31,381 bases of DNA from positions 1 to 31,381 of the IMG/VR virus record IMGVR_UViG_3300034198_017309. One strand, written 5' to 3'. Below, in pieces: positions 9,138 to 27,076 of the stretch. Both the position numbers and the translations under genes were made by a program. Positions within the stretch are counted from its first letter, which is position 1, and each line of letters begins with the position of its first letter. Under the pieces are notes generated by a model that was not told the DNA's origin, did not search any database, and was given only the letters and a program-made list of their open reading frames with translations. The stretch comes from a virus.

Positions 9138-9782
9138 ATGAAAGCCCTTAAGAGCCGCGGCTACCGTAACAAAAATCCAGGCAACATTGACTGGAACGCG
9201 CGCAATAAATGGGTTGGCCAGGTCGGCATTGAGCAGACCGGAAACCCGCCGCGCTTCGCTGTTTTTCAGACGCATGAGCATGGAATCCGCGCCCTGGCGG
9301 CATTGCTGACCACCTATCAGGACCGTCACGATTGCGTCACCATCCGGCAATTCATCCAGCGTTGGGCGCCCGGCAACGAGAACAATACAGACGCTTATGT
9401 GGCGCAGGTTGCGCGGCACATGAACCGCAGCAGCGAAACCGATATCCTTGATGTGGATAAGTATGAGGATCTCCGCCCGCTGGTGGAGGCAATTATCACG
9501 CATGAACTCGGGGGCAATCCCTATGAGGCGCGCGTGATTGACGAGGGATTGCGTTTGGCTGGCATCGCCCGCCCGATCCACACGGCGCGCGAGGCGGCGG
9601 CCACCCCCACCGGCAAAGGGGCGATCACGGTGGCCGCGGCGGCTTCTGCGGCGGCTACGGCGGCCCCTGCGCTGCAAAGCCTCTCTGCCTTGCCTCAGTG
9701 GGTGGGCGTGGCGCTGGTGATCGGCGTGGCGGTCGTGGCCGTTTCCTGGGTGCTGACGCAGCGCGCCAAACGAGCCGTTTGA
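9138..9782 (+). CDS. Peptidoglycan hydrolase (P5-like lysozyme/transglycosylase) with C-terminal anchor, 214 aa
   Basis: The muralytic enzyme of the lysis cassette. The N-terminal 120 residues match the phage family annotated as structural protein P5 or lysozyme-like. The signature is RGYRNKNPGNIDW (7-19), then RFAVFQTHEHGIRALAALL, TYQDRHDCVTIRQFIQRWAP (59-78) and ENNTDAYVAQVARHM. The E of NPGNI…QFIQRWAPGNE-type members is hard to assign by eye as the catalytic residue. After an Ala/Thr-rich linker (about 150-180) comes a strong membrane segment near residues 187-206 (VGVALVIGVAVVAVSWVL) and a basic end (QRAKRAV). A C-terminal anchor is unusual for an endolysin; it could tether the enzyme until holin action. 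AAGGAA nine bases upstream fixes the start. Confidence 0.8.
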   Translation: MKALKSRGYRNKNPGNIDWNARNKWVGQVGIEQTGNPPRFAVFQTHEHGIRALAALLTTYQDRHDCVTIRQFIQRWAPGNENNTDAYVAQVARHMNRSSETDILDVDKYEDLRPLVEAIITHELGGNPYEARVIDEGLRLAGIARPIHTAREAAATPTGKGAITVAAAASAAATAAPALQSLSALPQWVGVALVIGVAVVAVSWVLTQRAKRAV

Positions 9783-22241: not shown

Positions 22242-23972
22242 ATGTCAGGCACAGTAAGACTTTCGCAGCTTCCTGGGGTTTCCGTTCTCAATTCCAATGA
22301 TGAGATCGAGGTCAGCCAACAGGGCGCATCGCGCAAAGCCACAATAGACCAGCTTCGCGGCGGTTTGTATGTGCTGCCAGGCGACATTGAAAATTCGTCG
22401 CTCACCATGCCGTCCATGCGCGTATTGGCAAGGACAGCAGCAGGCATCGGGCCTCCGCAAGCCCTGGCGTCAATACCATCCACCTTTATTACAAACTTTG
22501 CGGCTGCCGTGAATGCTGCAATTCAGGCGGTTTCACGCACGATATATGTGCAGGGGTTTGGCTCGGACCTGAACAACGGCTCGTCTCTGACAAAGGCGGT
22601 AGCCACTATTGAGCGAGCGCTGCAACTGGCGACTGCGGCGGGAGAACCTACGCTGATTGAGGTCTATCCAGGGGTCTATACCACGGAAGGGCATCTTGAT
22701 CTGCCGGATAATTGCGTCATACGGTCAGCGCATCGGACGGCCATCATTCGCCCGGCGCCGGGCTTTGAAACGCGCAATGTCTTTCGGATGGGATCGGGCT
22801 GTTTCGTTGAGGGGTTTCTCATAGAGGATTTTCGCCTCGACAGCCTGACCAATCCGACCAGCGGTTTTGCCTTCAGCTTCCGCCCTGGCGCGGTCATCAA
22901 CCGTGTGCCGTATGCTCATAAATGTGCCATCCGCACCGGGCGCACATGGAGCGCCGTGGCGCCGCCGCTTGACCGCGCCAATGGCAATCCCGCCGTGGGT
23001 ATCGGGGGCGGCGTCGTGCTGGCTGACGGACTGGTGTGCAGCCAGTATAGTCCCTTCCCAAACATTATGACCTGGGGCGCTACTCCCGTTTCTCATAATG
23101 GAATCGGGTATTGCGCGAAGAACGGCGGGCTCATCAATGCGGTCAACGCCGTTTCGATGTGGGCGCACAAGCATTTTCTTGCTATGACTGGCGGGCAAAT
23201 CATCCTTTCGGCTTGCTCTACGCAGTTTGGAGACTTTTCACTCGCCGCTGAGGGCTACCGCGACATTGTTGTGCCGGCTGCGGTGGCGGGAACGCCAAGC
23301 GTCCAGACTGCCGCTGCTACGCTTGTGGCGGGATCGCAAAACAACATTATCAATGCGGTGTGGGCGGCATTGGTCGCGGGTGGCTACACGACCGGCTGGA
23401 CTGCGGGCGATGAAGCGGCGACACGCGCGGATGCGGCGCTGTTCCTTCAGTGCATCCGGTGGGGGCTGGAATACGCCAGCGAAAAGCCAATCCAAGACTT
23501 TGCGGCGGGCCTGTTCAACACAGTCGGCCAGCGCGTTTTCGACGTAGCCATGCTGCCAGCCTTTGTCTTTTCGTTCAACAATATGCGCGATCAGATCAAC
23601 GCTCTTGGTATCGCCAGCCCGGCGCAAACCATGGTCAGCAATATGACGGCGGCGGTGGTCAGCACGATAAGCAGCCCTGTAACGCGCCGGGAGCCGAGCA
23701 AAATCACAGCCATCGGTCATACATGGACCGCAGTAATGGCGGGTGTTGCTTTGGCCCGCATCCCCCCGGCCAATAACGCAGCTACCATCCGCGACAGCAT
23801 CCTTGAGCAGAACGAGGGGGTGGTTGTTGCCAGCGGCCAAGACGACCAGGGCAATGCAATTTTTGTTGGTGGCTTGGAAATCAGCGCCGACACGGGAGAG
23901 TTGAGCGGCCCGCCATTTGATTCCGCCGTGCGCCGCGTAGCGACCCGAACCGCCATCGCCAGGAGTTTTTGA
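22242..23972 (+). CDS. Second beta-helix tail protein / receptor-binding candidate, 576 aa
   Basis: The N-terminal 45 residues (GTVRLSQLPGVSVLNSNDEI, then QGASRKATIDQLRG) match a common fibre-head motif. At about 98-170 lies the start of a beta-helix of the type used by many environmental phages: TIYVQGFGSDLNNGSSLTKA, then IEVYPGVYTTEGHLDLPDN. The middle (about 170-340) is repetitive beta with HNGIGYCAKNGGLINAVNAV. The C-terminal half is more helical and ends in a conserved-looking trailer (REPSKITAIGHTWTAVMAG, ADTGELSGPPFDSAVRRVA) seen in similar phage tail proteins. GGAG seven bases before the ATG supports the start. Confidence 0.72.
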   Translation: MSGTVRLSQLPGVSVLNSNDEIEVSQQGASRKATIDQLRGGLYVLPGDIENSSLTMPSMRVLARTAAGIGPPQALASIPSTFITNFAAAVNAAIQAVSRTIYVQGFGSDLNNGSSLTKAVATIERALQLATAAGEPTLIEVYPGVYTTEGHLDLPDNCVIRSAHRTAIIRPAPGFETRNVFRMGSGCFVEGFLIEDFRLDSLTNPTSGFAFSFRPGAVINRVPYAHKCAIRTGRTWSAVAPPLDRANGNPAVGIGGGVVLADGLVCSQYSPFPNIMTWGATPVSHNGIGYCAKNGGLINAVNAVSMWAHKHFLAMTGGQIILSACSTQFGDFSLAAEGYRDIVVPAAVAGTPSVQTAAATLVAGSQNNIINAVWAALVAGGYTTGWTAGDEAATRADAALFLQCIRWGLEYASEKPIQDFAAGLFNTVGQRVFDVAMLPAFVFSFNNMRDQINALGIASPAQTMVSNMTAAVVSTISSPVTRREPSKITAIGHTWTAVMAGVALARIPPANNAATIRDSILEQNEGVVVASGQDDQGNAIFVGGLEISADTGELSGPPFDSAVRRVATRTAIARSF

Positions 23973-23973
23973 C

Positions 23974-24441
23974 ATGCCTCGGATTACCTGCAAGACGCCA
24001 GCAAGCGGCAAGCCGCTGAACATCACCTTGGTTGATGTCCCTGCGACCTTCACGACGCTCGCGGATGCGCCGGATTTCTCCGTGCCCGACCCGAGCCAAG
24101 CGTTTGCAGCGCGCGATCCTCTGGACGCTACGCGGGCAATTCGCCCTGGCGAGGTATTCTTGCTGACGCCTTTGGCGGTTTACAACAAGACGGCGACGGC
24201 GCGGTGGGTCGAGGTGCAGTTTTTGACTGAGAGCGGCGTGACGGTCCTCTCGCCCGGTCGCGTTTCGGTGCCGGCGTTTGATACCGCTTATATTCCGGTG
24301 CAGGGGCGCAGTCTGACGAAGCGTGTTGCTGCTGGAGTCAATGGCGACCGACTCCAAATCCGCGCTGAGTTTGCCGCGGTGTTTGATGTGTGGGGCAGCG
24401 CCGAAGAACGGCTTTCGGCTGAACATATCGGGGTGGTGTGA
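23974..24441 (+). CDS. Hypothetical tail-region protein, 155 aa
   Basis: A beta-rich protein whose ends of strands are clear: [59 protein letters not shown], and [12 protein letters not shown]. This suggests a small sandwich domain, probably a virion protein working with the neighbouring spike or fibre. AGGAG eight bases upstream supports the start; the stop overlaps the next ATG by one base. No family is assigned. Confidence 0.65.
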
Positions 24442-25250
24442 TGGCAGAAAAATACGGCTCTGGCCGCGCACCGCTACTTGGGCACGGTATTCCGCAGGCA
24501 GTCCCGATTACGCTTGATCCCGTTCTATACGCTGGCGCGATAGTTTATGGCGCAGACGGGGAAATGTATCGCAGTAACGGCAACGCTTGGTATCTTGTGG
24601 GGACTGGCCCACAAGGTCCGCAAGGTCCGCAAGGTATTCAAGGCCCGCAAGGTGAGACTGGGCCGACTGGCCCGCAGGGCACTTCTATACGCCTGCTCGG
24701 TAGTGTTGCGACTGTTGCCAACTTACCTACAGGCGCGGTGGTTAATGACGCCTATATAGTCACCGCAGACGGTAATCTTTATGTTTGGACGGGTTCTGTT
24801 TGGGCCAATGTCGGGCAAATTGTAGGCCCGCCCGGCCCTCAAGGCCCGGCTGGTGATACCGGTCCGACTGGTCCGGTTGGCCCGATTGGTCCTGCTGGCG
24901 CCCAAGGCCCTGCTGGTCCGACTGGCCCCCAAGGTCCGGCTGGTCCTTCCGACATTCCCGTGACCAACCGCACCGCAGCTTACACGGCGGCACTATCAGA
25001 CAATGGCGGCACCATCCGTATCACCACAGGCGGCGTGACGGTTCCAAGCGGCGTCTTTTTGCCTGGGCAGGTGTTTTCCATCGTGAACAACAGCGCCGGC
25101 AACCAGACGATTACGCAAGGGGCGGGCGTCACGCTGCGTTTTGCGGGCACAACGATAACCGGAAACCGCACTCTAGCGGGATACGGGCAATGCACCGTCT
25201 ATTGTGTGGCAAGCAATGAATTCCTCATTTCCGGTCCAGGGCTCACCTGA
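24441..25250 (+). CDS. Collagen-repeat tail fibre, 270 aa
   Basis: Two runs of Gly-X-Y triplets (residues about 56-80 and 129-170, units GPQ, GPT, GPA) form a collagen-like trimer shaft. Before and between them are the motifs [20 protein letters not shown] and [19 protein letters not shown], a small beta module common in phage fibres. The C-terminus ([40 protein letters not shown]) is a beta tip. Fibres of this type bind the host surface. ATG 24441 overlaps the upstream stop; a GTG in frame at 24438 is the alternative. Confidence 0.82.
24606..24680 (+). repeat. Collagen-like triplet repeats, first block
   Basis: A 9-base unit related to GGTCCGCAA is repeated with small changes, encoding Gly-Pro-Gln and Gly-Pro-Thr triplets. 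It is coding, not a CRISPR array, as the period is 9 and there are no spacers. Confidence 0.85.
24825..24950 (+). repeat. Collagen-like triplet repeats, second block
   Basis: A further run of about fourteen Gly-X-Y codon triplets ([15 protein letters not shown]). Such blocks expand and contract by slippage and recombination, so fibre length may differ among relatives. Confidence 0.85.
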
Positions 25251-25252
25251 CC

Positions 25253-26005
25253 ATGAGTATTATGCAGCTTCTGCTCGGCTCAACGTATTCGCCTTCGTGG
25301 ACACCAGCGTTTCTATCCCCCGCCTTATGGCTTGATGCGTCCAGCCTTGGCTCTTTGACAATTAACGGCAGCAATCAGATTTCGCAGTGGAATGATCTGA
25401 GCGGAAACGCGCGGCATGTCTCACAGGGCGCGTTATCTCTCATGCCGATTTTGAGCGGTTCGTCAGTTGTTTTCAGCGGGGGGCAATCGCTGAAACATGC
25501 CACTTATGATATTACCGGACTCGATAATGTAACTTTGTGCGTGGTGGCAAATCCATCCCCGAGCGTGGCGCCCACCCAGCAGTCCATAGTCCGATTTCAG
25601 ACTAACGCAAACCCATACTTCGTGTATCCGTGGGGGCCTGGGCGCTTGATCAGCTACCAAGATGGAGGAACAGCAGGCCCCTCTGCGGGCTTCGTCTCCG
25701 GTGCCGTGAATATTGGCGTGGCTCGACGGGCGATCAATAGCGCGTCGGGGCTTCAGACTTGGAACAATGGTACTGCGGTTGCCAGTGGCGCGACTTCCAG
25801 CGGGGCCATACAAGCCGGGCCGCTTTCCATCGGCTCATGGAATGGTTTGGTTGAATACTTCACCGGTTTGGTTAGCGAGGTTCTTATTTTTCACGCAGCA
25901 TTAGTCGCGGCAGATCGTGAAAAGCTTGAGGGTTATCTGGCTTGGAAATGGGCGGTGCAAACCAGCCTTCCTTTGGCGCACCCATACCGAAACGCGCCTC
26001 CATAG
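25253..26005 (+). CDS. ConA/LamG-like virion protein, 250 aa
   Basis: Carries the signature of the LamG/concanavalin-like phage and environmental proteins: LWLDASSLGSLTINGSNQI, SQWNDLSGNARHVSQGALS, a central sugar-binding-type beta sandwich with SVVFSGGQSLKHA, and the distinctive C-terminal helix ADREKLEGYLAWKWAVQTSL followed by PLAHPYRNAPP. It is likely a carbohydrate-binding tail component. The ribosome site before the ATG is weak. Confidence 0.78.
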   Translation: MSIMQLLLGSTYSPSWTPAFLSPALWLDASSLGSLTINGSNQISQWNDLSGNARHVSQGALSLMPILSGSSVVFSGGQSLKHATYDITGLDNVTLCVVANPSPSVAPTQQSIVRFQTNANPYFVYPWGPGRLISYQDGGTAGPSAGFVSGAVNIGVARRAINSASGLQTWNNGTAVASGATSSGAIQAGPLSIGSWNGLVEYFTGLVSEVLIFHAALVAADREKLEGYLAWKWAVQTSLPLAHPYRNAPP

Positions 26006-26276: not shown

Positions 26277-26564
26277 ATGGCGGCGCAAAAACCTTTCACT
26301 CCGGCGCTATCCCACGCGCTGATTGGCGTCCTGATCACTTTGGTGGTCGGTGGAATCCTAGCTGCCGCGCCTATAGGCCCGTGGGGTGCTGGCGCCGTTG
26401 CAGCGTTCACCTTCTATTTGTCGCGTGAGCGACGCCAAAGCGAAGAACATTTCGGCAGCAACCGTATCGCGTTGTGGCAATGGAAGCCGCGCGCCTTTCG
26501 TGACATGGCTTGGCCTGCGCTGGCGGGTGTCTTGGTGGCGCTGGCGATTGAGTATTTCGTCTGA
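26277..26564 (+). CDS. Two-helix membrane protein, 95 aa
   Basis: Two hydrophobic segments: residues about 13-46 (ALIGVLITLVVGGILAAAPI and then AGAVAAFTFYL, possibly one long or two short helices) and about 78-94 (WPALAGVLVALAIEYFV). A charged cytoplasmic loop between them contains SRERRQSEEHFGSNRIALWQ. It could be a holin or another envelope protein; the lysis cassette at 8828 already has a holin candidate. GGGAG nine bases before the ATG supports the start. Its stop overlaps the start of the heme-oxygenase-like gene (TGATG), so they are coupled. Confidence 0.6.
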   Translation: MAAQKPFTPALSHALIGVLITLVVGGILAAAPIGPWGAGAVAAFTFYLSRERRQSEEHFGSNRIALWQWKPRAFRDMAWPALAGVLVALAIEYFV

Positions 26565-27076
26565 TGAGCCTCTACGCCGCCACACGCGACCTGCACCATG
26601 CCTGCGAGGCCCATCCGGTAGGCCAGCGCATGAGCGCGGGGACAGTCACACCCCAGGAATGGGCGGATTGGCTGGCTGCGTTTCGCGCCATTCACAGAGT
26701 TGTTGACCCCCACCTGCCTTCACACCTGACGCGCGTTGCATTGCTGGATGCAGACCTCGCTATGATGCAGGCAGAGCATGGTGTGACGGGACGTAAGCCA
26801 GAGGCAGCGCGGCGCTTTGCTGACGGGCTGACGACTGAGGACGCAAGGCTTGGCGCAGCCTATGTGCTGCATGGGGCGCACAGGCGCGGCGGTGCTGTCC
26901 TGGCAAAGACTATGGCCTCGCTGCGGTTTGCGACCGGGCATGTGTTCTACCCCCTGCCGGCAGAGGCAGAGGCGTTTGTGAAGCAGTTACGCGACCGGCT
27001 GGAATTGGCTGAGGCCGCTACCGCCACCTTTCGCGCGCTACTCGCCAGCATGGATGAGATAGCTGGCGGTCGTTGA
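26564..27076 (+). CDS. Heme-oxygenase-like protein, 170 aa
   Basis: The pattern fits the all-helical heme oxygenase fold, whose classic members cleave heme to biliverdin, CO and iron. An N-terminal helix, ATRDLHHACEAHP, has His11 in the H-x-x-x-E position of the heme-ligand helix. It is followed by TPQEWADWLAAFRAIHRVVD. Then comes a 'LLDADLAMM' helix and the distal-helix-like GAAYVLHGAHRRGGAVLAK (about 97-115), like the YVLEGS.LGG segment but with one extra residue. The last helix ends FRALLASMDEI. It is slightly shorter than bacterial enzymes (190-210 aa). Alternatives are a heme-oxygenase-fold protein without heme activity, such as a TenA-like member. The gene is embedded in the late operon, coupled to the membrane protein before it. 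Confidence 0.65.
   Translation: MSLYAATRDLHHACEAHPVGQRMSAGTVTPQEWADWLAAFRAIHRVVDPHLPSHLTRVALLDADLAMMQAEHGVTGRKPEAARRFADGLTTEDARLGAAYVLHGAHRRGGAVLAKTMASLRFATGHVFYPLPAEAEAFVKQLRDRLELAEAATATFRALLASMDEIAGGR

Follow-up and report, generated by a model that had tools for sequence, protein, structure and literature searches.

The reading frame at positions 26564–27076 of a viral stretch of DNA (IMG/VR record IMGVR_UViG_3300034198_017309, the whole 31,381 nucleotides of which are referred to here as the window) raises the question of whether a phage carries a heme oxygenase (HO), the enzyme that opens the heme ring and releases iron, among its tail genes, and of what use it would be there. The reading favoured here, with a probability of about 0.6, is that of an active HO in a fibre cassette, degrading heme chiefly for iron release.

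The window phage is podovirus-like, its terminase, portal, and major head protein matching PHROGs. The head protein is closest to that of Acidovorax phage AP1 (43 %) and of Pseudomonas phages KPP25/phiR18 (40 %), with 32 % for a Paracoccus phage. Upstream of the portal gene, positions 9138–9782 encode a muramidase-like protein with a C-terminal hydrophobic segment and endolysin/tail-injection PHROG matches. A preliminary description, made from the letters alone, had placed tail genes upstream of the HO gene, and PHROG matches identify fibre genes there:

22242–23972 (+), tail fibre protein (cluster c0); opens the fibre cassette found ahead of HO in most relatives; PHROG tail fibre/baseplate matches
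23974–24441 (+), 155-aa fibre-cassette protein (cluster c1); no PHROG match
24438–25250 (+), collagen-like tail fibre protein (cluster c2); phrog_819 tail protein, 2e-32
25253–26005 (+), virion structural/fibre-associated protein, encoded after the fibre genes and before HO; phrog_10356, 6e-21
26277–26564 (+), 95-aa protein with two hydrophobic segments and a TGATG overlap with HO; weak phrog_1443 match, function unknown
26564–27076 (+), HO family protein, 170 aa; fold (Z 18.5), family profile, invariants over 53 relatives, dN/dS

The c0 fibre is 87 % identical over 464 aa to the fibre of locus L002. The 155-aa c1 protein belongs to a diverse family that is almost always located between two fibre genes; its relative in L034 has no Pfam match. 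Downstream of HO, where the preliminary description had put ejection genes, the ORFs of 139, 267, and 478 aa have no confident PHROG match.

The HO reading frame begins with ATG and is present in the window as had been described. Likewise, the reported overlap with the two-helix ORF is borne out by the coordinates, the TGA of the 95-aa ORF (26562–26564) overlapping the ATG of HO (26564–26566). Scans of the surrounding sequence, weak as they are for such signals, showed neither a sigma70-like promoter nor a terminator. In comparisons with the three nearest viral relatives (83–87 % identical), dN/dS is 0.09–0.16 at a dS of 0.70–0.93; this is therefore a real, conserved gene under purifying selection.

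Family and fold of the protein

Searched alone against Pfam, the window protein has PF01126 (Heme_oxygenase) as its sole match (E=0.0017), scoring 18.6 bits and thus under the gathering cut-off of 23 bits; it has no match in PHROGs. A search of viral contigs with this single sequence identified 46 relatives, and with a 24-member alignment at least 139 contigs were found to encode relatives, of which the best 80 were kept. PF01126 is matched by 18 of the 24 members (best 3.4e-5) and in 29 of 44 whole records at E<=0.01, two of the 44 being above the gathering cut-off. Against the PDB, the 24-member profile matches the human HO-1 G139A mutant (9.4e-4), Arabidopsis HO1 (0.0034), and HO-2 (0.006). 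All of its matches with E<0.5 are heme oxygenases, and the only others are two cytochromes c6 at E of about 1. The family profile also finds the HO of phage Mosig (1.4e-6), with a weak match to that of phage P-SSM2 (0.028). TENA_THI-4 (PF03070) is matched in none of the 44 whole records, nor in the Pfam search of the 24 members, and a TenA/PqqC identity was rejected on this basis.

The AlphaFold2 model of the protein, built from an input alignment of 53 relatives, has a pLDDT of 97.5 and a pTM of 0.92. In a Foldseek comparison with the PDB, every one of the matches listed (the best 50, all E<0.001) is a heme oxygenase. VIA-align gives a Z of 18.5 to HmuO and rat HO-1, with an rmsd of 2.7–3.0 Å and 170 residues aligned; its best 50 entries are likewise all HOs, nearly all aligned over 159–170 residues, and come from cyanobacteria, Leptospira, Neisseria, Pseudomonas, plants, and mammals. 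The predicted fold is that of a heme oxygenase, the all-helical arrangement of the superfamily being present over the full length of the model. The closest viral folds are two uncultured Caudovirales proteins named 'heme oxygenase' (A0A6J5RJ96 and A0A6J5KN38; TM 0.85–0.86), although these share only 18 % identity with the window protein. Based on profile, fold, and conservation, the product belongs to the HO superfamily as a divergent member, in agreement with the preliminary description of an HO-like protein.

Residues of the heme pocket

Across 53 sequences, L3, T7, H11, E15, H17, W36, D48, D64, Y100, A105, and H106 are invariant, as are G109, G110, H126, R143, F156, and M163. From alignment and sequence register, H11 and E15 correspond to H25 and E29 of HO-1, D64 to D92, Y100 to Y134, A105-H106 to G139-D140, G109-G110 to G143-G144, R143 to R183, and F156 and M163 to F207 and F214. 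Model residue 1 aligns with residue 15 of HO-1, 10 of HmuO, 7 of SynHO-1, 20 of GmHO-1, and 76 of AtHO-1. By such alignment offsets, His11 is in register with the proximal ligand His of nine crystallised HOs; this describes register, not geometry, and is based on the offsets and conservation, assuming that the first eleven residues are free of gaps. The ligands so matched are His45 of HO-2, His17 of SynHO-1, His16 of SynHO-2, and His86 of AtHO-1, together with His23 of Neisseria HemO and His26 of Pseudomonas PigA. In GmHO-1, HO-1, and HmuO the ligand is His30, His25, and His20, respectively (PMC7948506).

The proximal His in helix 1 and the Gly-Gly of the distal helix, both expected of the superfamily, are thus present as His11 and Gly109-Gly110. 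The proposal that His11 is the proximal ligand within an H-x-x-x-E motif is supported, Glu15 being invariant as well, and the distal segment (Y100-V-L-H-G-A-H-R-R-G-G110) is as had been described and is invariant or nearly so. Because of this conservation among 53 relatives, neither motif is a chance occurrence. The one-residue insertion suggested for the distal segment holds only against bacterial BphO-like HOs, in which the spacing is one residue shorter (YVLLGASLGG in L103 and YVLEGSALGG in L107). From the Tyr to the Gly-Gly the spacing is identical to that of HO-1, plant HO, and Mosig HO. As read from the aligned sequences, the true difference from HO-1 is the replacement of Gly139-Asp140 by Ala105-His106.

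The catalytic Asp of mammalian and HmuO-type enzymes (Asp140 of HO-1) is therefore absent, an invariant His106 being found instead. This excludes the mammalian subtype but not the superfamily, since plant HO-1 also has His at this position. The plant enzymes GmHO-1 and AtHO-1 share with the phage family both the Ala-His pair and the Y...GG spacing, the frame in GmHO-1 being Y144...G153 with Ala149-His150. In soybean GmHO-1, Ala149 and His150 replace Arg136 and Asp140, an alternative hydrogen-bond network is formed, and the enzyme is active (PMC7948506). The likeness has limits: overall identity of the plant HO-1 to the window protein is 13–16 %, in the plant enzyme the ligand His makes no use of the proximal Glu (PMC7948506) whereas the phage family retains Glu15, and an irregular region inserted after helix 1 in the plant enzymes (PMC7948506) is not shared. 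The phage family pairs a plant-like distal Ala-His with a mammalian-like proximal Glu.

The loss of Asp140 leads to a possible, though unlikely, alternative, that of a non-catalytic pseudo-HO. In such a protein the fold would serve for sensing, carrying, or scaffolding, binding heme (or a different ligand) without degrading it. In human HO-1, Asp140His strongly reduces activity (PMC7948506), and pseudo-HOs with real roles, PfHO and AtHO2, exist (PMC11634067). However, the proximal His is missing from known pseudo-HOs, and in PfHO the Gly-Gly is gone as well (PMC11634067); both features are invariant in the 53 members here, and the Ala-His arrangement occurs in an active plant HO. For the favoured reading of an active enzyme, the plant analogy is imperfect, given the impairment of the human Asp140His protein (PMC7948506) and the mammalian-type Glu kept by the phage proteins.

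Linkage to the tail-fibre cassette

Homologous fibre genes are found upstream of HO in 59 of the 71 loci that have at least 4 kb of upstream sequence, and those without them belong mostly to one freshwater branch. Homologues therefore do occur at the same place in related phages. The HO gene overlaps the preceding gene by 1 or 4 bases in 32 of 58 non-redundant loci, but the preceding gene varies: the two-helix membrane protein is found in this window only, and elsewhere its place is taken by a gene for a fibre, for a DUF4376 protein, for a tail-assembly chaperone, or for some other small protein. The overlap to which the preliminary description pointed is thus real, but a partnership with the two-helix protein does not follow, relatives overlapping other fibre-end genes; a functional pairing was rejected since other loci carry different upstream genes.

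Among 14 loci fetched with the 155-aa c1 protein, nine carry HO and three lack it despite more than 5 kb of downstream sequence, the remaining two ending too early to tell. L124, L125, and L126 are fibre cassettes without HO. The linkage is therefore strong but not obligatory. The real pattern, previously overlooked, is that of a widespread clade in which HO is tied to a cassette of tail-fibre genes, and which is present at the fibre-end position in many aquatic phages and Rhodobacteraceae prophages.

Downstream of HO the loci differ, with a GTA-type hub, NlpC/P60, and GTA_TIM in some, the c6 family (about 800 aa) in others, and small membrane proteins with CHAP or M15 peptidases, or other genes, in the rest. 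In loci L005–L007, L047, L054–L058, L081, L087, L109, and L112, the fibre cassette with its HO lies between DUF2460 and the Gp84_N hub/NlpC/GTA_TIM genes, as in a gene-transfer-agent-like tail module. On the tree, the downstream type changes at least four times among 35 classified rows; with so few changes, no more than a modest claim of module exchange is made.

It is improbable, but worth weighing, that the protein is a partner of the tail fibre, aiding its assembly or riding in the virion, with heme as a structural cofactor or receptor-related ligand. The frequent upstream fibre genes, the short overlaps, and the differing virion modules downstream (GTA-type hub, c6, and others) would all fit. 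Against this, the freshwater branch has HO away from fibre genes with the same residues, cassettes L124–L126 do without HO, the region after the fibre genes is a common site for accessory genes, and the conserved residues are those of the heme pocket. Still more doubtful is that a heme-binding HO now functions as a component of a mobile fibre module, moving with the fibre between different phages; if so, heme or iron chemistry would be important in attachment, in maturation of the fibre, or in competition for a shared receptor.

Hosts, role, and known phage enzymes

Outside viral contigs, relatives of HO are found in Roseovarius sp. TE539 and in a Rhodobacteraceae MAG. Strong phage-type copies are present in four of 394 Roseovarius-family genomes, three of them beside a fibre cassette. 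Ordinary PF01126 enzymes occur in two of 149 Roseovarius-family genomes, so the phage would probably bring an activity that, as far as PF01126 is compared, the host mostly lacks. The phage rows form one group on the tree (98/95) against three bacterial HOs, with long branches and no root inferred. A recent capture from the host was rejected, as the Roseovarius-family bacterial HOs are far off on this long-branched, unrooted tree. In tblastn searches, four family members had no match in 50,697 records of cultured phages, one family member had no match among plasmids, and a bacterial HO as query found no phage HO; the Mosig and P-SSM2 enzymes were retrieved by accession rather than by these searches.

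A heme oxygenase outside cyanophages had been considered notable, but those of pelagiphage Mosig and freshwater phage CB_2 have already been described, and the surprise is therefore smaller than supposed. The CB_2 enzyme (vHemO) makes biliverdin, and phage hemO-pcyX-alaS cassettes are known (PMC11480375). In Mosig, which like the window phage has a non-cyanobacterial host, HO lies within the structural region and adjoins phycocyanobilin:ferredoxin oxidoreductase and 2OG-Fe(II) oxygenases, with a ferrochelatase nearby. Its HO is homologous to this family, with the same T-x-x-x-H-x-x-x-E and Y...GG register, but has Gly-Asp rather than Ala-His in the distal helix. P-SSM2, a Prochlorococcus phage, encodes an HO of the same superfamily with a mammal-like distal helix (YLGDLSGG) and has photosynthesis genes in the same stretch. 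At 213709–216727 of its record, a tail fibre gene is located less than 0.5 kb downstream of HO, with an HNH endonuclease gene between them.

Whereas the HO of Mosig is paired with a bilin reductase, as is that of CB_2 (PMC11480375), the ferredoxin-dependent bilin reductase domain (PF05996, Fe_bilin_red) is absent from the 46 records of this family, including the window; a control genome was matched, and the 46 records may be fragments. This is therefore not the known pigment cassette (hemO with pcyA, pcyX, or pebS), which was rejected. Also unlike Mosig and CB_2, HO here ends the fibre cassette of smaller podo- or siphovirus-like phages and prophages. The freshwater, myovirus-like branch has a ferritin/Dps-type gene within about 2–3 kb of HO (PF00210, 5.9e-19), and some members also carry a 2OG-Fe(II) oxygenase nearby. 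The ferritin-type neighbour is mainly confined to this branch, and the window shows neither a ferritin nor a bilin gene. Because no bilin reductase is present and one branch has a ferritin/Dps neighbour, iron release or heme removal is judged likelier than pigment making. The PF00210 gene is downstream of HO in L026, L027, L028, L029, L030, L032, L033, and L093, and YkuD L,D-transpeptidase, RNaseH_like, and DUF6267 genes are further neighbours in this branch. In L088, a fibre-type HO phage, two adjacent ferritin-family matches on opposite strands are seen at about 19.2–20.1 kb of the record.

On the favoured reading, the gene stands last in a fibre cassette common to different virion types and would encode a compact cytoplasmic HO, translated late in infection along with the fibre proteins. 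Host heme would be bound by His11 on the proximal side, beneath the kinked Gly-Gly distal helix, and the ring opened to biliverdin, CO, and Fe2+. No electron-donor gene was identified, and electrons may come from host ferredoxin or flavodoxin reductases. Protons may be delivered via Ala105-His106, as in plant HO-1, and not by the mammalian Asp140 network. The useful product would probably be iron, or the removal of heme, rather than a light-harvesting pigment, there being no bilin reductase alongside. Carriers of the cassette would infect Rhodobacteraceae and probably other aquatic bacteria.

Very unlikely is a takeover of the host, in which late heme destruction and CO would disable cytochromes and respiration, aiding lysis or blocking rival phages; the late-operon position, and the small membrane proteins and CHAP or M15 peptidoglycan hydrolases that several relatives then encode, are in keeping with it, but the downstream neighbours vary, and a single HO copy serves iron supply in many bacteria. 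The superfamily fold also includes diiron oxygenases and TenA/PqqC-type enzymes, and other chemistry on it might be suspected from the extra conserved H17, D48, and H126, yet this is scarcely credible given the lack of TENA_THI-4 in all 44 records, the HO identity of the best 50 Foldseek matches, and the retention of the heme-ligand His, Gly-Gly, and propionate Arg.

A literature search on this phage HO clade found no paper. In the material covered, there appears to be no description of the clade, of its HO standing alone, of the distal pair, or of the attachment to a fibre cassette. Nearly all discussion of phage HOs has treated them as pigment genes linked to bilin reductases, and the co-occurrence of phage heme-catabolic genes has been called enigmatic (PMC11480375). 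In this clade the case is a clear one, HO standing alone in Rhodobacteraceae phages and prophages, the hosts of which are mostly without PF01126, and lying in one branch beside a ferritin-type gene. It also provides natural HOs of only 165–170 residues in which a plant-like Ala-His distal pair is set on a mammalian-like proximal site. Roseovarius sp. TE539 is one of four sequenced genomes with phage-type copies, so that the role of these enzymes is testable in culturable hosts.
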